From Streptomyces sp. SCL15-4 (GTDB lineage Bacteria > Actinomycetota > Actinomycetes > Streptomycetales > Streptomycetaceae), in the NCBI RefSeq assembly GCF_033366695.1, contig NZ_JAOBTQ010000001.1, forward strand, positions 1,922,001-1,986,000: a stretch of DNA of 64,000 bases, given 5' to 3'. The notes under the pieces are model-generated. The model worked only from the letters and a program-made list of their open reading frames with translations, searched no databases and had not been told where the DNA came from. Shown one piece after another: positions 42,160-51,499 of the stretch. Each line of letters begins with the position of its first letter. Position 1 is the first letter of the stretch. A program made the position numbers and the translations under genes.

Positions 42160-42951
42160 ATGTTCGGGCCCAGACGTGTGAGAAAGACCGCCGCGACCCT
42201 GGTGGCCACCGCCGCCGCCGCGGCGACCGCGCTGCTCGCCTCCCCCACGGCGAGCGCCGCGCCCCAGCCCGTCGTCGGCGGTACGACCACCACGACGACC
42301 GCGTACCCGTTCATGGTGCAGATCACGGACGCGTCCCAGAACCAGTTCTGCGGCGGCACCCTGGTGGCGCCCACGAAGGTCGTCACGGCCGCGCACTGCA
42401 TGGTCGGCGAGACCACGAGCAGCGTCCGCGTGGTCGGGGGCCGGACCTATCTCAACGGCACCAACGGCACGGTGAGCCGGGTCGGCAGGATCTGGATCAA
42501 CCCGGGCTACACGGACGCCACCAACGGCGACGACGTGGCCGTGCTGACCTTGTCGACCTCGATGCCGTACACCACGGCCAAGTACGTCACCTCCTCCCAG
42601 ACGAGCGTCTACGCGGCCGGCACCACGGCCCGGATCCTCGGCTGGGGGACCACTTCGGAGAACGGCAGCTCCTCCAACCAGCTGCGGACCGCGACCGTGC
42701 CCGTCGTGTCCGATTCCGGCTGCCGTTCCTCCTACGGCTCGGACTTCGTCCAGTCCGACATGGTCTGCGCCGGATACACGTCCGGCGGCGTGGACACCTG
42801 CCAGGGCGACAGCGGCGGTCCCCTGCTCATCGGGGGCGTCCTGGCAGGGATCACTTCCTGGGGCGAGGGGTGCGCGGAGGCCGGTTACCCGGGTGTCTAC
42901 ACCCGGCTGACCACCTTCTCGGACCTGGTGACCGCGCAGGTCAACTCGTAA
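42160..42951 (+). CDS. Secreted trypsin (chymotrypsin-fold serine protease)
   Basis: 263 residues with AGGAG before the ATG at 42160. Signal peptide to ~34 (ATLVATAAAAATALLASPTA) and a short propeptide; the mature enzyme probably begins at VVGG (38-41). Catalytic triad: His79 in VTAAHC, Asp125 in GDDVAVLTL and Ser218 in CQGDSGGPL. Asp212, six residues before the Ser, gives trypsin specificity (Lys/Arg). Six Cys can form three disulfides. It is close to the S. griseus trypsin type. Probably activated by the LAL regulator upstream. Confidence 0.95.
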   Translation: MFGPRRVRKTAATLVATAAAAATALLASPTASAAPQPVVGGTTTTTTAYPFMVQITDASQNQFCGGTLVAPTKVVTAAHCMVGETTSSVRVVGGRTYLNGTNGTVSRVGRIWINPGYTDATNGDDVAVLTLSTSMPYTTAKYVTSSQTSVYAAGTTARILGWGTTSENGSSSNQLRTATVPVVSDSGCRSSYGSDFVQSDMVCAGYTSGGVDTCQGDSGGPLLIGGVLAGITSWGEGCAEAGYPGVYTRLTTFSDLVTAQVNS

Positions 42952-43059: not shown

Positions 43060-44376
43060 TCACGACGGGCGGTCGCACACCGTCGGCTGCCAGGTCGGGC
43101 CCGAGGTGTCGCCGAGCGCGTCCAGGGAGCGCAGCAGGCGGTCCAGGCGGCCCGGGTGGGCGAGGAACTCGATGGCCGCCTCGGCGAACGCGTCCCGCAC
43201 CGCGGGCGGCATGACGTCGGAGGCGTCGAAGCAGTGCGCCGTCTCCTCGTCGCGCAGGGCCGCCGCGAGGGAGCGGTGCCAGGCGGAGCCGCCTTCGGAG
43301 GCGGGCCGCAGCCCGGCGTGCACGGAGAAGCCGGAGTCCTTCTCCGTCCAGGCGCGTTGGGCGTCGGTGGAGGCCAGATGGCGGATCAGCTCGCGCGCCT
43401 GCGGGGTGTCGTGCAGCAGGGCGACGAGGTCGCCGGAGACCTCCCAGGCGCCGGGGGCGGGCGCGTCGAGGAGCAGCTCCGCGGAGGAGGCGTACCGGCC
43501 GTCGGCGTGCCGCCAGGCGGGCTGGTTGCGGACGAACGACGCCTGGTGCTCCAGCGTGCAGCCGCGCGGGTCGTCGGCGACCGGCTCGGAGGCCGACCGG
43601 TACGGCGTGTTCAGCGCCCGCCGCACCAGGTCCGGCTCACCGCCGGCGCCGACCAGATCGCGCCAGGTCCTCCACGCCTCCTCCACCTGCGGGGACTGCC
43701 AGCGCAGGCCGCCGCGCGCCCACCGTTCGTACACGCCGGGGCCGTGGCGCTGGAGCAGGATGTCCTCGATCCAGTCGGTGCCGGGCCAGCCGCTGGTGGC
43801 ACCGGAGCCCATGCCGACGCACCACGCGGCCGGCCGGTGCGCGGCCGCACGGCGTTCCCGCTCGCCGAGACCGCCCGGGTACCAGACGATGCTCTTCACG
43901 TCGGCCTTCAGCGGGAACCAGTACACGTGCCCGTCCGCCAGCGGGGTGCTCCAGGGCGCGCCGAAGTCGGCGGGGCGCACCAGGTTCTCGAGCGGGACGA
44001 GCTGCTTCTGCCGGGCGTACTCGGCGAGTTCGCCGGGTCCGGTGAGCACCACCACGTCGGGCGGGGTGCCGGCCTCGACGTCGGCGCCGAGCACCTGGCT
44101 CTCGGCGTTGCTGCCCTGGTAGTCGACGTGGACACGGTGCTCGCGCTCGAACGGTTCGATGACCGCCTCGCGGAAGTGGTCCTCGTCGCCGCCGGTCCAG
44201 TTGGCCAGCAGGGTCACGGTCGGTTCGTGCCCGGCCGCGCGTACGCCGACCACGACGGCCGCCGCCAGGAGGGCCAGGGCGCCGGCCACCCCGGTGACGG
44301 TGCGCGCCAGGCGGCGGGAGGGGCGGGTACGGGCCTCGGGGGCGGCCGTCGCCGGGTCGCCGGGGTGCGCGTTCAC
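43060..44376 (-). CDS. Membrane-tethered extracellular solute-binding protein (family 1)
   Basis: 438 residues from a GTG at 44376 overlapping the stop of the preceding gene (GTGA). An N-terminal TM/uncleaved signal anchor (~25-46, ARTVTGVAGALALLAAAVVV) without a lipobox is followed by a family 1 binding-protein fold: TVTLLANWTGGDEDHFREAV, NAESQVLGADVEAGTPPDVVVL, WFPLKADVKSIVWYPGG. No transport permease or ATPase is present, so it likely senses rather than imports. Last gene of the PknG operon; it occupies the place of GlnH in mycobacterial and corynebacterial pknG loci, although GlnH belongs to a different (amino-acid) binding-protein family. Confidence 0.88.
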   Translation of the reverse strand: MNAHPGDPATAAPEARTRPSRRLARTVTGVAGALALLAAAVVVGVRAAGHEPTVTLLANWTGGDEDHFREAVIEPFEREHRVHVDYQGSNAESQVLGADVEAGTPPDVVVLTGPGELAEYARQKQLVPLENLVRPADFGAPWSTPLADGHVYWFPLKADVKSIVWYPGGLGERERRAAAHRPAAWCVGMGSGATSGWPGTDWIEDILLQRHGPGVYERWARGGLRWQSPQVEEAWRTWRDLVGAGGEPDLVRRALNTPYRSASEPVADDPRGCTLEHQASFVRNQPAWRHADGRYASSAELLLDAPAPGAWEVSGDLVALLHDTPQARELIRHLASTDAQRAWTEKDSGFSVHAGLRPASEGGSAWHRSLAAALRDEETAHCFDASDVMPPAVRDAFAEAAIEFLAHPGRLDRLLRSLDALGDTSGPTWQPTVCDRPS

Positions 44377-45602
44377 CGGGGCCTGAACCGGTAGTCGTTG
44401 ATGTGCCGTCGCAGGCCGGTCTCGGCCAGTGCCATCAGCAGGACGCCTCCTATCAGGATCCACACCGACGCCGCCGCGCGGAAGCCGGTGCCGGCCAGGT
44501 ACGAGGCGGTGTGCCGCCCCGCCTCGGGGATGTGCGGCCCGCTCAGCGGGCGGTCGAGCAGCGTGCGGGTGTCGGACATCCCCGCGTGGGTCCACACGGT
44601 GAACAGCACCGTGACGGCGAGACCGGCGAGCGTCAGCAGGCCGGCGGCGAGGAGTTGACGGTTGTAGCGGCGCCGGAAGCGGTGGCGCAGGAAACGCTGG
44701 GTCTCCAGCAGCGCCGCGGTCAGGACGAGGGCGAGCAGCAGCGTCGCGCCCCAGGCGAGCCACAGCAGCGGGCCGAAGGAGGTCTGGCGGTGCACCGTGG
44801 CGCGCTGCCGCCGTTGCAGGTCCTTCAGCCGGGCCCGTATGCCGGAGCCCTTCTCCGTCAGGACGCCGGTGGCGTAGCTGAGGTACGCCTTGCGCAACAC
44901 ATCGTCGTCGGCCCGGAGTTGGGACTGCTGGACCTTGACGGCGTAGACCGTGATCAGACCGGCCACGGTCTGCAGGGCCTGGCGGCCGGCCGGCCCGGCG
45001 AGGTCGTCGTCGGCCGCGGCGGCGGCGAGGCTCTGCACGGCGACCGAGATCTGCTTCTGGAAGTCGCTGGTCGGGACCGGCCGCGCGGCGTCCCGCTGGG
45101 CCTCGCCGAGCGCGTACAGCGCGGTGTCCAGGGACAGCACGGTCGGGGCGGTGGAGGTGCGCAACGGGTTCGCGTCGCCGTGCACGCCCTGGTACGACAC
45201 GAACAGCGACAAGGTGAGCAGGGCCGACAGAGCGAGCAGGAGGCGGTGCCGGAGGGCGAGATCCCGAGCGGTGGTGCTGCCGTCCGGGGCGGGTGAACCG
45301 GTGCCGCCGGCCCACGCGAGCGGCCCGGAGACGATCCGGGCGAGGAGACGGGCCGGACGACCGGGTGCACGGCGGTGGGCGGGAGGTGCCGAGGGGGCCG
45401 CCGGGGCGCGCCGGGGCTGCGGGGAGGACGGGGGCTGCCGGGGGGACGGGGGCTGCGGAGCCGTATCCCGGCCGCCGCCGGAGCCGGCGGGCGTGCCCTG
45501 ACCCGCACCGGAACCGGCCGGTGTGCCCCGGCCCGCGCCGGGCTCCGGCGGTATGCCCCGGCCGCCGCCCGCGCCGAGCGGCCCCGCGTGGCCCGGGTTC
45601 AT
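44373..45602 (-). CDS. Four-TM sensor-like membrane protein (GlnX-like)
   Basis: 409 residues from an ATG at 45602 that overlaps the upstream stop (ATGA). A Gly/Pro-rich cytoplasmic N-terminus (~1-110) precedes TM1 (LLLALSALLTLSLFV, ~120-140), a ~170-residue extracytoplasmic helical domain (DTALYALGEAQRDAARPVP to RARLKDLQRRQRATVHRQ), then TM2 (LLWLAWGATLLLALVLTAAL), TM3 (LLTLAGLAVTVLFTVWTHAG) and TM4 (VWILIGGVLLMALAETGL). This topology and its place between a PknG kinase and a binding protein match GlnX, which relays ligand binding to PknG. Family identity is inferred from context and topology. Confidence 0.82.
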   Translation of the reverse strand: MNPGHAGPLGAGGGRGIPPEPGAGRGTPAGSGAGQGTPAGSGGGRDTAPQPPSPRQPPSSPQPRRAPAAPSAPPAHRRAPGRPARLLARIVSGPLAWAGGTGSPAPDGSTTARDLALRHRLLLALSALLTLSLFVSYQGVHGDANPLRTSTAPTVLSLDTALYALGEAQRDAARPVPTSDFQKQISVAVQSLAAAAADDDLAGPAGRQALQTVAGLITVYAVKVQQSQLRADDDVLRKAYLSYATGVLTEKGSGIRARLKDLQRRQRATVHRQTSFGPLLWLAWGATLLLALVLTAALLETQRFLRHRFRRRYNRQLLAAGLLTLAGLAVTVLFTVWTHAGMSDTRTLLDRPLSGPHIPEAGRHTASYLAGTGFRAAASVWILIGGVLLMALAETGLRRHINDYRFRPR

Positions 45603-47389
45603 GCCGTCGCTCCTCTCAGCAGCCGCCCGCAGTCGCCTCCGCAGTAGACGGAGCCGGCCGGACCGAGCCAGTGGCACTCCGGGCACTCGATCAGCCCGTC
45701 GGGCCGGACGGGCAGGGCGGGGCCGGCGGCGTGCGGCGCGGGCGCGGCATCGGCCTCGACGGCCTCCGGCCCCGGCGACCCGGGCGTTCCGGCCCCGACC
45801 GGGCGCGCGCCGCCCGGAGTCGGGTGGCCCGGCGGCACGCGGTCCGGGCCCGGGCCGCCCGGGTCCGCGCCATCCGGACCCGCGCCGTCCGCCTTGACGC
45901 CGGCCATGGCCGCACCGCCTCCGTCACGGCTCCCGTGACCACCGCCTCCCGCCGGCCTCCGCACCCCGGCCGCGCTCCCGGCCCCTGCGCCACCCGCCCC
46001 CGTACCGCCCGCGCCCGCCGGCGGTGGCGTCGGCTGTTCCGGAGGGGTCGTCAGGGCGCTGGAGAGGATGAGGTGCTGCCAGTCGACGTCCTTGAGTCCG
46101 GGGCGGATGCGGCCGGTGCCCGGCGCCGACTCGATCAGGCGGAGCGCGCCGAGCAGCGCGGCGTCGCCCAGTTCGGCGGCCAGCGCGAGGGCGCGGGCGA
46201 GTTCGCGGTCCGCCGTGTCCCGGCCGTCCGCGCCGCGCAGCCAGGCCCGGTACGCCTGGGCGACGGCGGCGCTCGCCCGCTGGTACAGCTCGTGCCGGCG
46301 GATCCCGGGATGCTGCCGGGAGGCGTCGAGCGGGTCGTCGGTCCAGCGCACCAGGATGGGCCGGGGCGGCGGCAGCCGCAGCGGGCGCCGGACGCCGGGT
46401 ACGACGATCTCCGCGGCGGCCAGCTGGAGTTCCTCGCCGCTCTCCCGGCCGGTGGGGTCGGCGGTGAGGACGACCTGGAAGTGCCGTACCTCGTCGCCCC
46501 AGGCCCGGGTGACGTACTCCGCGGCGCGCCCGCCGGGGCCGGCCGGGACGGGTCGCAGCTCCTGTTCGTTCGGCACCACCTGCTTGACCTGGCGGATCAC
46601 CGTGCCGGGGGTGGTGGGGGTGAGGCGGATGCGCAGTTCGGGCACCGCCGTGCCGAGCAGCCCGGCGATCAGTTCCTCGTACGCGGCGGTGAGTTCGGCC
46701 TCCCGGCGGACGGCCCGGGCCCGGCCGTGCAGCCGCCGGGTGATGTTCAGCAGCAGTTCGGCGTCCCAGTCGTCGCCGATGCCCCAGGCGTCGCAGACGA
46801 ACTGGTCCGCGCAGGCGTCGAGCACGGTCTCCAGCGGCCGGCGGGAGCGGTGGTCGTGCTCGTTGCGGCCGTCGGTGAGCAGCAGGACGTGTTTGACGGG
46901 CGCGGGCTGGTCCTTGAGCAGCCGCCGGGCGAGGTCGAGCCAGGCGCCGATGGAGGTGCCGCCGTCCGCGTCCAGGATGCGCACCGCGCGTTCGGCGGCC
47001 TCGCGTTCGCCGGGCCGGGCGACGGCGAGCACCTGGCGGCCGGGGCCGGGGTGGACGACGGTGGCGTCGAAACGGCCGGACAGGACGGCGAAGGCGGTGC
47101 CGAAGGGCAGCATCCGGACGGCGGCGACGGTGGCGTCCTTGGCCGCGTGGAGCTTCGCCGGCGGGTGGAGCATCGAGCGGGAGGTGTCGATGATCAGCAC
47201 CTCGGCGAGGGCGGGGCCGGTGCCGGGCGCGGGCGTGGCGCGCGGCGCGCCGGCCGGGCCGCGGACCCCGATCTCCAGGATGGCGTGCATCTCGCGTTCG
47301 GGGTGGTGCCCGGCCGGGTCGGGCACGGCGGGCAGTTCCGTCCGCTGGCCGACCTCCAGCGTCACCTCGGTCTCCTCGGCCACGGTCAT
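45599..47389 (-). CDS. VWA-domain protein with C-terminal zinc ribbon
   Basis: 596 residues from the ATG at 47389; no signal peptide, so cytoplasmic. A von Willebrand A domain (~65-235) has the MIDAS motif in VLIIDTSRSM (D-T-S-R-S) and LLTDGRNEHD. A β-rich domain follows to ~400, then a ~130-residue Gly/Pro/Ala linker, and finally a zinc ribbon CPECHWLGPAGSVYCGGDCG. The zinc ribbon mirrors the one at the start of the PknG-type kinase encoded 29 bases upstream. It may be a kinase substrate or scaffold; that is inferred. Confidence 0.88.
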   Translation of the reverse strand: MTVAEETEVTLEVGQRTELPAVPDPAGHHPEREMHAILEIGVRGPAGAPRATPAPGTGPALAEVLIIDTSRSMLHPPAKLHAAKDATVAAVRMLPFGTAFAVLSGRFDATVVHPGPGRQVLAVARPGEREAAERAVRILDADGGTSIGAWLDLARRLLKDQPAPVKHVLLLTDGRNEHDHRSRRPLETVLDACADQFVCDAWGIGDDWDAELLLNITRRLHGRARAVRREAELTAAYEELIAGLLGTAVPELRIRLTPTTPGTVIRQVKQVVPNEQELRPVPAGPGGRAAEYVTRAWGDEVRHFQVVLTADPTGRESGEELQLAAAEIVVPGVRRPLRLPPPRPILVRWTDDPLDASRQHPGIRRHELYQRASAAVAQAYRAWLRGADGRDTADRELARALALAAELGDAALLGALRLIESAPGTGRIRPGLKDVDWQHLILSSALTTPPEQPTPPPAGAGGTGAGGAGAGSAAGVRRPAGGGGHGSRDGGGAAMAGVKADGAGPDGADPGGPGPDRVPPGHPTPGGARPVGAGTPGSPGPEAVEADAAPAPHAAGPALPVRPDGLIECPECHWLGPAGSVYCGGDCGRLLRGATA

Positions 47390-47418
47390 CGCTGTCTCTC
47401 CCGGAGCTGGTGGGCGGG

Positions 47419-49695
47419 TCAGAAGGTGGTCAGGGGCCGGACGGCGTGGGCCAGGTCGAGCAGCCGGCCGTGTTCCCCGGCGGTGCGGGCCTGCGCGGCG
47501 AGCTGCCGGAAGGACTGCTCCAGCCGGGTGCGCAGCCCGTCCTCGTCCCCGGCGCCGAAGACGTCCCCGGCGGGGAAGTCCGGTCCCCAGCCCTGGGCGG
47601 GGCGGCTGTGCAGGGCGTTCTCCCGGACCTCGGCGACCAGCCGGGCCCGGGACTCGCCGTCGGCGGCGCCGCCGTCCAGGCGCAGTTCGGGCAGCCGCCG
47701 GGCCGCGTCCCGCAGGCCGGCCGCGGTGGGCGGGGTGCCGTGCAGGATGCCGACGCGGATGCGGACGGCCGCGATGCGGGCGGCGTCGTGGTGCCGGGAG
47801 GTGGCCGGGACCTCGTCGAGGACGTGCACGGCGGCGTCCCGGTCGCCGGCGGCGAGGTGGCCGCGGGCCAGGCCGAACGCGGCGGCGGTGTGCGTGAAGT
47901 CCCGCCTCCAGACGGCCTCGTAGTACCGCATGGCCCGGTCCCGGCGGGCGTCGGCGGTGTGTTCGGCGCAGTGGCCGAGGGCGAGCTTGGGCACGTACTC
48001 GCCGGGCAGTGCCTGGTAGACGGCGTCGAAGCGGGCGCCGGCCAGGTCCACCTCGCCCTTGCTGAGGTGCAGTACGCCGTGGTGCCAGGCGATGCGCCAG
48101 TCGTGGGCGGCGGCGCGTTCGCCGAGCTGGGTCTCGGCCTCGGCGAGCCAGCTGTCCGCGGCCCGCTGCTCGCCCTTTCTCAGATAGGCGCGGCACAGCC
48201 ACAAGGCGGTCTCGGGGGTGCCGAGGCGGGATTCGCGGGGCCATTGCCGGGCGACCCGGTCGGGGGCGTCGGGCGGGAAGGAGTCGAGCAGCAGGGCGGC
48301 GCCGTCGTCGGGGTCGGGGAACGGCTCGGGCAGGGCGCCGGCCACCTCGGCGGGGTCGGGCGGGGAGACGTCCAGGGGGGCGGGCAGGTCGCCGGCGCGG
48401 CGGGTCCAGTGGCCGAGGGCGGGGATCGCGCCGAGTCCGGCGTCGAGGCCGGCGCCGGACGGACGGAACCGGGTGGAGCCCTCCGGCAGCTGCTCGCCGA
48501 AGCGCAGCGCGCGGAACTCGCGCAGCACCTCCCAGAGCTGGCGGGACATCTCGGCGGCGGAGCGGAACCGGGCGCGGGGCTTGTCGTGGGTGGCGCGGGC
48601 GACGATGCGCCGGAAGGAGTCGGCACTGAGGCCGCGGGCGGGTTCGGCGTCACGGGCCAGGGCCTGGAGTGTCATGCCGACGGTGTAGAGGTCGCTGTCG
48701 ACGTGCCAGCCGCGGCGGTCGATCTCCTCCTTGGGCGGGGCGAAGCCGGGCGTGTAGACGTAGGCGGAGGCGCGGTCGCCGATGGCGCGGACGGCGCCGA
48801 GGTCGACGACCTTGACGGCGCGGCCGAAGTGGACGACGTTGGCGGGCTTCATGTCGCAGTAGAGCAGGCCGCGTTCGTGCATGTACTGGAGGGCGCCGAG
48901 GATCTTGCAGCCGTAGGTGAGGACGTGGTCGAGGCGGGGGCGGCCATGGAAGATCCGTTCGATGTCGTCGGCGTCCATGAGCTGTTGCAGGGAGCGTCCG
49001 GCGATGTAGTCCATGACGAGGTAGCCGGTGGACGGGTGGCCGGCGCTCTCGTACTCGAAGTAGTTGACGAAGCGGACGATGTCGGGGTGGTGCAGGGCGG
49101 TGAGGGAGCGGCGCTCCTCGACGGCGGTGTGCCGGGCGTGCACGTCGTGGACGTTGATCTGGCCCTTGAGGACGACCCGGTAGCCGTCGGCGCGGGTGTC
49201 CTCGGCGAGGTAGATCCAGCCGAGGCCGCCGTGGGCGAGGCAGCCGAGCACCTTGTAGTGGTCGTCGACGATGTCGCCGGGGTGCAGCTGCGGCAGCAGC
49301 GAGTAGGCGGTGCCGCAGCGGGGGCAGTGGCCGGTGGGGCGGGCGGGCTGGTCGCCGTAGCCGACGCCGATGGTCATGGTGCAGCCGCCGGCACCGCAGC
49401 GGCGGCCCCCGGAGGGCGGGCGGGGGTCCGCGACGAGGACGTCGCCGGGGGCGGGGACCTCGGGCAGGACGACCAGTCCGTGCTGGTCGAGTTCGCCGAG
49501 TCCGGCGACGGCGTGCACGGCCGCCGGTACGGGCGGTTCGTCGGCGGCGGTCGCGAGCCGGGTCGGTCCGGGCGGTCCGGCAGCCGGCCCGGGGTGCGGT
49601 TCGGTGCGGGGTTCGGCGTGGCGGTGGCCGCAGGTGTCGCAGTAGCCGGTGGCCATGATGCGGCCCGCGCAGCCGGGCCGGACGCACGAGGTCAC
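47419..49695 (-). CDS. pknG: PknG-type serine/threonine protein kinase with TPR domain
   Basis: 758 residues from a GTG at 49695 with GAGGAGG upstream, overlapping the previous stop (GTGA). Order: an N-terminal CxxxxC…CxxC knuckle (4-23), a rubredoxin-like site (C100, C105, C124, C127), kinase domain ~145-410 with AHGGLGWIYLAED (glycine loop), Lys177 in VVLKG, YCDMKPANVV (catalytic Asp), VVDLGAV and YTPGF, then TPR-like helices to the end, finishing HAVRPLTTF. Length and the C-terminal segments LPGEYVPKLAL and LDEVPATSRHH match mycobacterial PknG closely. PknG phosphorylates the FHA protein GarA/OdhI to tune 2-oxoglutarate metabolism; no such gene is in the window. Confidence 0.95.
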   Translation of the reverse strand: MTSCVRPGCAGRIMATGYCDTCGHRHAEPRTEPHPGPAAGPPGPTRLATAADEPPVPAAVHAVAGLGELDQHGLVVLPEVPAPGDVLVADPRPPSGGRRCGAGGCTMTIGVGYGDQPARPTGHCPRCGTAYSLLPQLHPGDIVDDHYKVLGCLAHGGLGWIYLAEDTRADGYRVVLKGQINVHDVHARHTAVEERRSLTALHHPDIVRFVNYFEYESAGHPSTGYLVMDYIAGRSLQQLMDADDIERIFHGRPRLDHVLTYGCKILGALQYMHERGLLYCDMKPANVVHFGRAVKVVDLGAVRAIGDRASAYVYTPGFAPPKEEIDRRGWHVDSDLYTVGMTLQALARDAEPARGLSADSFRRIVARATHDKPRARFRSAAEMSRQLWEVLREFRALRFGEQLPEGSTRFRPSGAGLDAGLGAIPALGHWTRRAGDLPAPLDVSPPDPAEVAGALPEPFPDPDDGAALLLDSFPPDAPDRVARQWPRESRLGTPETALWLCRAYLRKGEQRAADSWLAEAETQLGERAAAHDWRIAWHHGVLHLSKGEVDLAGARFDAVYQALPGEYVPKLALGHCAEHTADARRDRAMRYYEAVWRRDFTHTAAAFGLARGHLAAGDRDAAVHVLDEVPATSRHHDAARIAAVRIRVGILHGTPPTAAGLRDAARRLPELRLDGGAADGESRARLVAEVRENALHSRPAQGWGPDFPAGDVFGAGDEDGLRTRLEQSFRQLAAQARTAGEHGRLLDLAHAVRPLTTF

Positions 49696-51380
49696 GACGC
49701 ACCCTCCTCCTCGGGTGTGGGAGTGGAGCAGAAACCGACGAACCGCTCGACGGCGGCCTCGGCCCGCTCGATGTCGCAGGGGGTCTGCCGCAGCAGCGAC
49801 AGCGCCTCTTCGTAGAGCCGGTACGCCGCCATGACCCGGTCGCCGTGCGCGGCGGCCCGCTGCCGGCACAGCGGCCATTCGGCGCCGACGCGGCCGAGGA
49901 GTTCGGTGCGGCGGCGCAGCCGGGCGTCCAGCATGCCGACGGCGTTCTCCAGGCGCCGCCGGCGGCGGGCGACGGCGGCCTCGAAGGTGAACAGCAAGGT
50001 GGCGGTGGCGGGGTCGCGCTCGGGGTCGGAGGTGTGGGCGACCCAGGCGCGCAGCATCCGGGTGCGCCGTACGCCGGCGTCGGCGCGGTCGATCAGCGGG
50101 CGGGTGCCGGGGCCGGGCAGGACGCGGTCGCGGCGGATGTCGAGCGCCGGGCCCAGTTCCTCGGTGATCCGGTCGACTTCGGCGCGCAGCCGGGCCCAGC
50201 GGTCGCGCAGCGGACGGTGGACGAGCAGCTCGGCGGCGCGGGCGGCGCGTTCGCCCGGGGTGCGGAAGGTCAGCAGCAGCCGGGCGCCCTGCCGGGCGAG
50301 CCGGTCCAGCAGGGCGAGCAGGGCGTCGGGTTCGGCCGCCTCGTCCACGCCGGCCAGTACGGCGGCGAGCGGCAGGCGCAGGGTGCCGAGCCGTTCGGGG
50401 CGGGGGTCGTCGCGGATGCCGAGGCGTTCGGCGATCCGGTCCATGACCTGGGCGGCCGTCAGGTGCTCGACGTCCAGGGCGAGGTCGTGGGCGCCGGCCG
50501 GCGGCACGGTTTCGGGCGGGTCGTGGCTGACGGCGCTGGTGTTGCGGTGCGTGCGCAGTTCGCGGTCGGCGAGGGTGACGGCCCGCTGGAGGGTGAAGGC
50601 GCGGTCGCCGCGGTCGGGGACGACGGTGACGAGCACCGGCCAGCCCTCGCCGCGGAACCAGGAGGCGAGTTCGGTGGCGAAGGGCACGTCGAGCCGGCCG
50701 GCGGCCGGGCCGGTGCCGGTGCGCAGCCGGGGATCGACGGCCTCGGCGCCGTCGGTCCAGGCGGCGGCCTGCGGCAGATGGCTGAGGATGGTCTCGGTGG
50801 GGCTCATGTAGCTGAAGGCGGAGCCCGGTCCCTCGTCGACGCTGAGGACGATGCCGATGACCTGGTCGGTGGCGTGGTCGACGACTCCGCCGCCGCTGAA
50901 GCCGGGTGCGGCGAGTTCGCCGGGGAGCGGGCGCAGTTGGACCTGGCTGTCCCGGCCGCGGGCGGCGACCAGGGTGGCGCCGTGCCAGCGGCCGCCGTCG
51001 TCGCCGTCCGGGAAGCCGTACATGCTGACGGGTCCGTGCGGGGCGGCGAGCCGGTAGAGGCGGGTGGTGTGCTCGGCGGGCAGCGGCGGGGCCAGGCGGA
51101 GCAGGGCGAGGTCGCCGCTGCGGTCGCCGAAGGTGTCCTCGCGCTGGGGCACGTACTCGTCGGGGCGGACGGTGGCGGTCACGGGGGCCAGGCCGGGTAC
51201 GCCGACCAGGCGGACGGTGTAGGGGCGGCCGGGGCGGACCACGTGGCCGGCGGTGAGGACCCGCTCGGGTGCGAGCAGCACCCCCGCGCCCAGGACCCGC
51301 CCGTCCGGCGTCTCGATGCGCGCGATCCAGGCGGGTGTCCGTAACCATGCCGTGCCGACTCGCTCCCCCGTGCGCGTCAT
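49692..51380 (-). CDS. Cytoplasmic trypsin-fold protein with helical C-terminal domain
   Basis: 562 residues, no signal peptide. The N-terminal ~200 residues are a trypsin-like fold with an intact-looking triad: VLTAGHVV (His), SGDLALLRL (Asp) and GFSGGGVVD (Ser). A middle region (~210-370) is α/β with VLVTVVPDRGDRAF and a Leu-rich ARLLLTFRTPGE segment; the C-terminal ~190 residues are strongly helical and Arg/Glu-rich. First gene of the five-gene operon and coupled to pknG by a four-base overlap. The architecture resembles effector-associated trypsin-like modules beside signalling ATPases and kinases. Whether it is an active protease is not known. Confidence 0.87.
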   Translation of the reverse strand: MTRTGERVGTAWLRTPAWIARIETPDGRVLGAGVLLAPERVLTAGHVVRPGRPYTVRLVGVPGLAPVTATVRPDEYVPQREDTFGDRSGDLALLRLAPPLPAEHTTRLYRLAAPHGPVSMYGFPDGDDGGRWHGATLVAARGRDSQVQLRPLPGELAAPGFSGGGVVDHATDQVIGIVLSVDEGPGSAFSYMSPTETILSHLPQAAAWTDGAEAVDPRLRTGTGPAAGRLDVPFATELASWFRGEGWPVLVTVVPDRGDRAFTLQRAVTLADRELRTHRNTSAVSHDPPETVPPAGAHDLALDVEHLTAAQVMDRIAERLGIRDDPRPERLGTLRLPLAAVLAGVDEAAEPDALLALLDRLARQGARLLLTFRTPGERAARAAELLVHRPLRDRWARLRAEVDRITEELGPALDIRRDRVLPGPGTRPLIDRADAGVRRTRMLRAWVAHTSDPERDPATATLLFTFEAAVARRRRRLENAVGMLDARLRRRTELLGRVGAEWPLCRQRAAAHGDRVMAAYRLYEEALSLLRQTPCDIERAEAAVERFVGFCSTPTPEEEGAS

Positions 51381-51478: not shown

Positions 51479-51499
51479 ACTATACACGCAGTGTATAGT
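51479..51499. promoter_or_regulatory. 21-bp palindrome over the deacetylase -10 box
   Basis: ACTATACAC and GTGTATAGT are perfect 9-base arms around GCA (51479-51499). The right arm contains TATAGT (51494-51499), a -10 box seven bases before the ATG at 51506. No good -35 is visible. A repressor bound here would block transcription directly. The A/T-rich palindrome stands out in this GC-rich region. Confidence 0.75.

Follow-up and report, generated by a model that had tools for sequence, protein, structure and literature searches.

The window analysed here is a stretch of 64,000 nucleotides from the 8.42 Mb genome of Streptomyces sp. SCL15-4 (contig NZ_JAOBTQ010000001.1, positions 1,922,001 to 1,986,000), and it carries a compact module of five minus-strand genes built around a kinase of the PknG type. 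PknG has been described chiefly in mycobacteria and corynebacteria, where it acts with two partners in sensing amino acids. Passages of PMC6069109, PMC9769921 and PMC8546545 describe these partners, GlnH and GlnX, as functionally linked to PknG, and the legend to Fig. 10 of PMC9769921 presents contacts within GlnH-GlnX-PknG as not demonstrated. Its sequence marks the module in the window as a paralogous and remodelled branch of the PknG system, termed type II below. In a literature search made mostly without subscription papers, supplements and preprints, neither this module nor the seven-gene locus to which it is compared was found to have been described.

Composition of the five-gene module

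The first gene encodes TRY (49692-51380, minus strand as for all five genes; 562 amino acids), a cytoplasmic protein that consists of a trypsin domain, a degenerate STAND NTPase (nucleoside triphosphatase) domain and a C-terminal helical adaptor. It is followed by the PknG-type kinase (47419-49695, 758 amino acids) with its N-terminal zinc ribbon, rubredoxin, kinase and TPR domains, and by a VWA protein (45599-47389, 596 amino acids) with a DxSxS motif and a C-terminal zinc ribbon. The last two genes encode a GlnX-like membrane protein with four hydrophobic segments (44373-45602, 409 amino acids) and a membrane-tethered solute-binding protein (SBP) of the SBP_bac_1/8 type (43060-44376, 438 amino acids). 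Three of the junctions are 4-base overlaps, and the kinase and VWA genes are separated by a gap of 29 bases, exactly as a preliminary description of this DNA had given them.

The kinase matches the Pfam families PknG_rubred (29.7 bits, cut-off 28.5), Pkinase and PknG_TPR, all three above cut-off, and can be aligned over residues 73-758 with the solved PknG structure 2pzi; the catalytic lysine, the catalytic-loop aspartate and the DxG motif (DLG) are preserved in this alignment. The VWA protein belongs to Pfam VWA_3 (59.5 bits), has one weak hydrophobic stretch in a hydropathy scan (residues 401-419), and its DxSxS motif is preserved in 70 of the 71 complete type II loci, which are defined in the next section. 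No Pfam family scores above its cut-off for the membrane protein, and its match to the NCBIfam GlnX model (E 1.2e-12) reaches 47.8 bits against a model cut-off of 250. Hydropathy scanning gives this protein the four membrane segments that had been ascribed to it, and places one segment near the N-terminus of the SBP.

TRY, which is 93% identical to its counterpart in S. achromogenes, is made up of three parts, and no membrane segment is found in it by hydropathy scan. The trypsin domain (residues 31-177; 50850-51290, minus strand) matches Pfam Trypsin_2 with 40.9 bits, and alignment reveals the triad His46, Asp90 and Ser162, by which TRY of the window is a predicted S1-type protease. The triad is kept in 44 of 50 aligned TRY relatives; the gene caller had set the start too late in L053, L057, L085 and L089, and their triad histidine was scored separately. 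The central domain (about residues 201-385; 50226-50780, minus strand) is left unnamed by Pfam in all 50 aligned members, and it was recognised through TRY of Amycolatopsis, which has kept a P-loop-like stretch there. The Amycolatopsis protein matches a protein with a caspase-like start, an intact P-loop and TPRs (Pfam caspase and TPR families), and a STAND-type profile of 62 proteins matches the TRY centre with a probability of 98.9, compared to at most 2.5 for nine control families. The P-loop has been lost from the STAND domain of the window TRY, which is therefore probably inactive. The C-terminal helical adaptor (about residues 463-550; 49731-49994, minus strand) is homologous to a coiled-coil protein of the classic PknG locus.

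An unusual arrangement occurs in Streptomyces sp. MZ04 (L093:7437-12612), where trypsin, rubredoxin, kinase and PknG_TPR lie in one open reading frame (ORF) of 963 amino acids, followed by a 437-residue protein that has no Pfam match and is CHAT-like only by eye, and by a weak alpha/beta-hydrolase match.

Conservation and kinship with the classic locus

The order of the five genes, which had been proposed to form a unit, is conserved. Searching genome contigs with the kinase of the window yielded 70 loci, and TRY, PKNG, VWA, GLNX and SBP follow one another in this order on one strand in 60 of them. Seven others run off the end of a contig (L034, L040, L042, L043, L061, L077 and L080), and three differ, since L068 has no VWA gene and a short kinase, L092 is broken and L093 is otherwise arranged. 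Nine further non-classic loci were fetched from a set of 41 genomes, eight of them complete and one, L010, reduced to PknG, GlnX and SBP. Complete type II loci are found in Streptomyces, Amycolatopsis, Saccharothrix, Kutzneria, Actinoplanes, Plantactinospora, Actinacidiphila and Streptantibioticus. Complete means that the profile matches occur in order, and the term includes loci in which VWA occupies two frames (L055), VWA and GlnX share an ORF (L060) or the kinase is split into two pieces (L087). As L004-L007 come from the same genomes as L026, L044, L046 and L063, the 71 complete loci amount to 67 distinct ones. Genes in the fetched loci were called by our own GC-frame script, and the annotation profiles are lenient because they were built from the same loci, the first annotation having used the window, the classic locus L003 of the same genome and five diverged loci. 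In L060, a draft genome, the VWA and GlnX-like parts share an ORF of 798 amino acids (L060:10441-12837), which points to a fusion of the genes or else to an error in sequencing.

The pairwise distances of the five proteins are correlated (r 0.956-0.981, for 64 of the 67 distinct complete loci). In a kinase tree of 82 rows, all 34 complete and both minimal type II rows fall on one side of a branch with support of 100 in the Shimodaira-Hasegawa-like approximate likelihood-ratio test (SH-aLRT), together with L080 (a cut type II locus), L093 and L121, which is very long, half-empty and of the classic type by its neighbours. This tree covers 82 of 127 loci thinned by hand; it comes from a quick search, has SH-aLRT support only, contains long branches and is unrooted. 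The distribution of type II is patchy, with 8 of 24 same-genus relatives bearing it (seven complete, one minimal), and all eight also give a second, classic-type match, which in three cases is known by the match alone.

Proteins of the SBP_bac_1/8 class normally work with ATP-binding cassette (ABC) importers. The SBP of the window matches both SBP_bac_1 and SBP_bac_8 in Pfam, and the profile probability of 1.2 against GlnH places it in another class, in line with the sugar-type family that had been proposed for it. Among solved structures it has weak matches to the chitin-oligosaccharide-binding NagB2 (E 7.6e-5) and to YesO (E 0.0018). The only other match of the SBP in the genome is an SBP_bac_1 protein of 32 percent identity that adjoins two BPD_transp_1 permeases, which suggests that the sensor was probably recruited from a sugar importer. 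It might then be supposed that the SBP still serves an ABC importer encoded elsewhere and that the five genes are merely co-transcribed. The usual role of its class and the permeases beside its nearest paralogue favour this view, and only local neighbourhoods were checked. Nevertheless, it is very improbable, given that the gene order is preserved across several families, that the five proteins co-diverge, and that a permease lies within 2 kb of the SBP in just one of the 71 complete loci (L009, on the opposite strand). The permease check used two queries on the fetched DNA, which ends within a few hundred bases of the SBP in L007, L062 and L063. Judged from these neighbourhoods, the window SBP lacks the adjacent permease genes that would be expected of a carbohydrate ABC importer, and the earlier view of a binding protein without a transporter appears sound.

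The window genome holds a second PknG in the locus L003:4684-15234 (G000:C1:5506001-5526000), which is a seven-gene classic set in the order GlnX, GlnH (SBP_bac_3), coiled-coil protein, PknG, PP2C with zinc ribbons, VWA and FHA, here called type I. The same seven genes are present in all 11 classic-type loci fetched from relatives (L013-L023). When profiles were restricted by locus type (69-70 type II and 25-30 type I rows each), type II and type I matched with probabilities of 100 for PknG, 100 for VWA and 99.7 for GlnX, the last of which upholds the pairing of a PknG-type kinase with a GlnX-type membrane protein. The TRY C-terminus matches the coiled-coil protein with a probability of 99.1, or 98.9 with the type-restricted sets. 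Among the other 30 profile pairs, 27 score 1.4 or less, and the three exceptions were traced to zinc ribbons (type II VWA with type I PP2C, 88.1; type II VWA with type I PknG, 74.9; type II PknG with type I PP2C, 41.7). These profile comparisons show that PknG, a GlnX-like protein, VWA and the helical adaptor are common to the window module and the classic streptomycete locus. The preliminary description had regarded the protease and the VWA protein as two additions without a classic counterpart, which has to be corrected, as L003 encodes both a homologous VWA protein and a coiled coil that matches the end of TRY.

The comparisons likewise show what sets type II apart: trypsin and a degenerate STAND domain are fused to the adaptor, the SBP has been exchanged, and neither a PP2C nor an FHA gene is found in any of the 71 complete loci, whereas GlnH, PP2C, FHA and a stand-alone adaptor characterize type I. 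Compared to the GlnH-GlnX-PknG system, type II is alike in the rubredoxin, kinase and TPR domains of PknG, in a remote GlnX homologue and in having a tethered binding protein in the operon, but that protein is of the SBP_bac_1/8 type and not a GlnH (SBP_bac_3). The classic system is further characterized by phosphorylation of the FHA protein OdhI/GarA. Type II also adds the VWA and TRY genes, which go unmentioned for the classic system in the passages of PMC6069109, PMC9769921 and PMC8546545 that deal with it. Other pairs of kinase and SBP genes, SGR_4432 and SCO1468, are mentioned in a passage of PMC6069109.

By a simple motif, zinc ribbons are present in 66 of 71 type II VWA proteins compared to none of 28 type I VWA proteins, and in 48 of 70 type II kinases. 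Of the two ribbons of the type I PP2C, the first resembles the C-terminal ribbon of the type II VWA protein and the second, in a weak match, the N-terminal ribbon of the type II kinase. It looks as if PP2C was lost in type II and its ribbons were retained on the VWA protein and the kinase. Gene sets of kinase, PP2C and vWA protein include the TerY-P triad. Sets of this kind are noted for GAP1-N2 systems in a passage of PMC7159879. Type II shares with them a zinc-ribbon kinase and a stand-alone VWA protein but lacks the PP2C in all 71 loci, compared to 31 other loci that have one, and only type I has all three.

A class-wide sample places these loci in a broader setting. PknG_TPR was found in 27 of 118 genomes, in 38 loci, of which 21 are type I-like (PP2C and/or VWA), seven have three genes (GLNX-GLNH-PKNG), four are complete type II, one is minimal type II, one (L123) is mixed and four have no partner on the kinase strand; in two of the last group, L118 and L125, GlnH and GlnX are on the opposite strand. 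L123 has no trypsin and combines the coiled coil, PknG, VWA and GlnX with an SBP of type II; it is perhaps an intermediate or a recombinant. PP2C occurs in 31 of 127 loci (the window and L003-L128), and these also have VWA (28), the coiled coil (27), FHA (29), GlnX (29) and GlnH (29). Six of the seven three-gene loci are from one family. The kinase tree places the three-gene loci within its type I side, where they group with seven-gene loci at 89 percent support (a value that is not starred). The operon of three genes known from the literature may therefore be a reduced form of the seven-gene locus, within the limits of an unrooted tree.

Proposed signalling and links to conflict systems

We consider the module to be a remodelled PknG receptor-kinase system, in which an extracellular, probably carbohydrate, signal would pass via GlnX to PknG and control a trypsin/STAND-like partner held by the VWA protein; the probability of this reading is put at about 0.55. 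A ligand outside the cell would bind the SBP and change GlnX, and GlnX would in turn act upon the kinase's TPR domain, in the way proposed for the classic system. The kinase would then phosphorylate the VWA protein, TRY or both, and the VWA protein, with its DxSxS site and zinc ribbon, would hold the complex. Once released or activated, the trypsin unit could cleave cytoplasmic targets in a regulated response of the stress or conflict type, with the Trypco1/2 proteins encoded near many relatives as possible partners. We infer the ligand, the contact of GlnX with the TPR domain, the phosphorylation of VWA or TRY and the trypsin output, and the proteolytic or scaffolding branch that was suggested earlier is plausible. 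As both types contain PknG, GlnX, VWA and the adaptor, these four are taken as the core and the remainder as exchangeable input and output, and the two minimal loci indicate that even VWA and the adaptor can be missing.

Several observations weigh against the receptor-kinase reading. L010 and L126 contain only PknG, GlnX and SBP, and thus TRY and VWA are not obligatory; the preliminary description had asked whether the protease and VWA genes always accompany the kinase, which they do in the 60 loci of conserved order and do not in these two. The triad is lost in 6 of the 50 trypsin domains (P0083, P0086, P0087, L072, L079 and L088), hence proteolysis cannot be the role in every lineage. In addition, the clade to which the window belongs has no locus with an adjacent Trypco gene, the window genome lacks Trypco2, the sole Trypco match of the genome is located elsewhere, in a VMAP locus (L137), and a relative of the MoxR-like ATPase of L137 was found, with this one query, in none of the 71 complete loci.

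Some of these facts would also suit a sensor of purely metabolic function. The module would then be a counterpart of classic PknG that senses sugar and regulates carbon metabolism, for instance through phosphorylation of an FHA protein whose gene lies elsewhere, and the trypsin/STAND part would be a docking scaffold without proteolysis. Such a role is a real possibility, albeit a rather unlikely one. The kinase, GlnX, VWA and adaptor are the same as in the classic locus, the closest relatives of the SBP bind sugar, and the lost triads and the clade without Trypco point the same way, as does a passage of PMC7159879 in which almost every trypsin domain at the vWA effector position is reported to be inactive. 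However, a scaffold would not readily account for the triad retained in 44 relatives or for the Trypco genes that adjoin 30 of the 71 complete loci, and an FHA or PP2C gene accompanies none of these loci.

Kaur et al. 2020 (PMC7159879, in the passage on these genes) named Trypco1 and Trypco2 for genes that accompany the trypsins of vWA-MoxR systems in a mutually exclusive manner, and a passage of PMC10907252 terms them adapters. The 30 type II loci with a Trypco gene have either Trypco1 or Trypco2, never both, and of the remaining 56 loci the cut type II contig L080 is the single one with such a gene. Pfam confirmed the assignment in 23 of 23 tested cases (18 Trypco2, 5 Trypco1). A passage of PMC7159879 describes trypsin fused to an inactive STAND domain in the iSTAND type, and this type as almost absent from actinobacteria. 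In comparison with the VMAP/iSTAND vWA-MoxR systems (parts of PMC7159879 and PMC10907252), type II is alike in the VWA protein, in the fusion of trypsin to an inactive STAND domain and in the Trypco1/2 genes near many relatives, the iSTAND family being compared by its description only. It differs in having PknG kinase, GlnX and SBP instead of a MoxR relative, and the window's clade is without Trypco.

The window genome has a single VMAP locus of the published kind (L137, G000:C1:5764001-5778000), with an AAA ATPase, a protein of trypsin and VMAP-C (141 bits) and Trypco1; BTAD but no VWA was seen in its first, cut gene. With the TRY trypsin profile, the trypsin of the L137 VMAP protein scores 68.6 bits, compared to 28.2 bits for a secreted trypsin encoded beside the window locus. 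Pfam detects neither a MoxR AAA ATPase among the five window genes nor VMAP-C in the module. The lack of Trypco in the clade, of Trypco2 in the genome and of an ATPase relative indicates that type II is not a member of the vWA-MoxR ternary systems, though its predicted make-up resembles them.

An outright conflict system is quite unlikely; in it, death- or dormancy-like proteolysis would be set off by an external threat (fragments of the cell wall or of chitin, a competitor, damage by phage), and PknG would replace the MoxR ATPase. The trypsin-degenerate STAND fusion with a VWA partner parallels the iSTAND ternary systems as described in a passage of PMC7159879, Trypco genes are neighbours of many of the loci, and the trypsin-PknG fusion of L093 adjoins the weak alpha/beta-hydrolase match. 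This is countered by the lack of a MoxR relative in the 71 complete loci and by the common chromosomal setting of the locus in the window's clade, with no obvious island. Furthermore, tblastn found no copy of TRY in plasmid and phage collections, on which ground a mobile-element reading was rejected, and for the module PADLOC returned no more than kinase-type models matching the kinase and two weak TRY matches.

A bolder form of the receptor-kinase reading, which we regard as speculative and on balance unlikely, would make the module an immune or death switch driven by a receptor kinase: the tethered SBP would sense a carbohydrate fragment and unleash the trypsin/STAND-like effector, with PknG in place of the AAA switch. 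The classic locus and type II would then be the metabolic and the conflict-type output of one ancient core of GlnX, PknG, VWA and adaptor. In soil actinomycetes, the conserved module links PknG to an external sensor of the sugar type and to an internal trypsin-like protein such as occurs in conflict systems, and this suggests that the kinase family does more than sense amino acids. The PknG kit appears wider than its two familiar partners, as PP2C loci mostly come with VWA, adaptor and FHA, and in a second branch the sensor is exchanged and a trypsin/STAND unit added. If the reading is true, a membrane receptor kinase drives a Trypco-type trypsin, and the PknG field gains VWA and the adaptor as candidate partners.

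Flanking genes and a palindrome

The gene divergent from the module in the window encodes a polysaccharide deacetylase, a possible but uncertain pointer to the ligand of the SBP. Just before it lies a perfect 9-base inverted repeat, ACTATACAC, with the 3-base spacer GCA (51479-51499). As a pattern with 7-base arms the repeat occurs once in the genome, and it is found at 15 distinct related loci with a varying spacer, so that it is a candidate operator for some regulator. A role as operator of the module itself was rejected, because L004 has an inserted gene and the palindrome remains there with the deacetylase gene. On the other side of the module, a secreted-type trypsin gene (42160-42951, Pfam 185 bits) is convergent with the SBP gene, and a gene of this type is often present near the locus in relatives of the window's clade.

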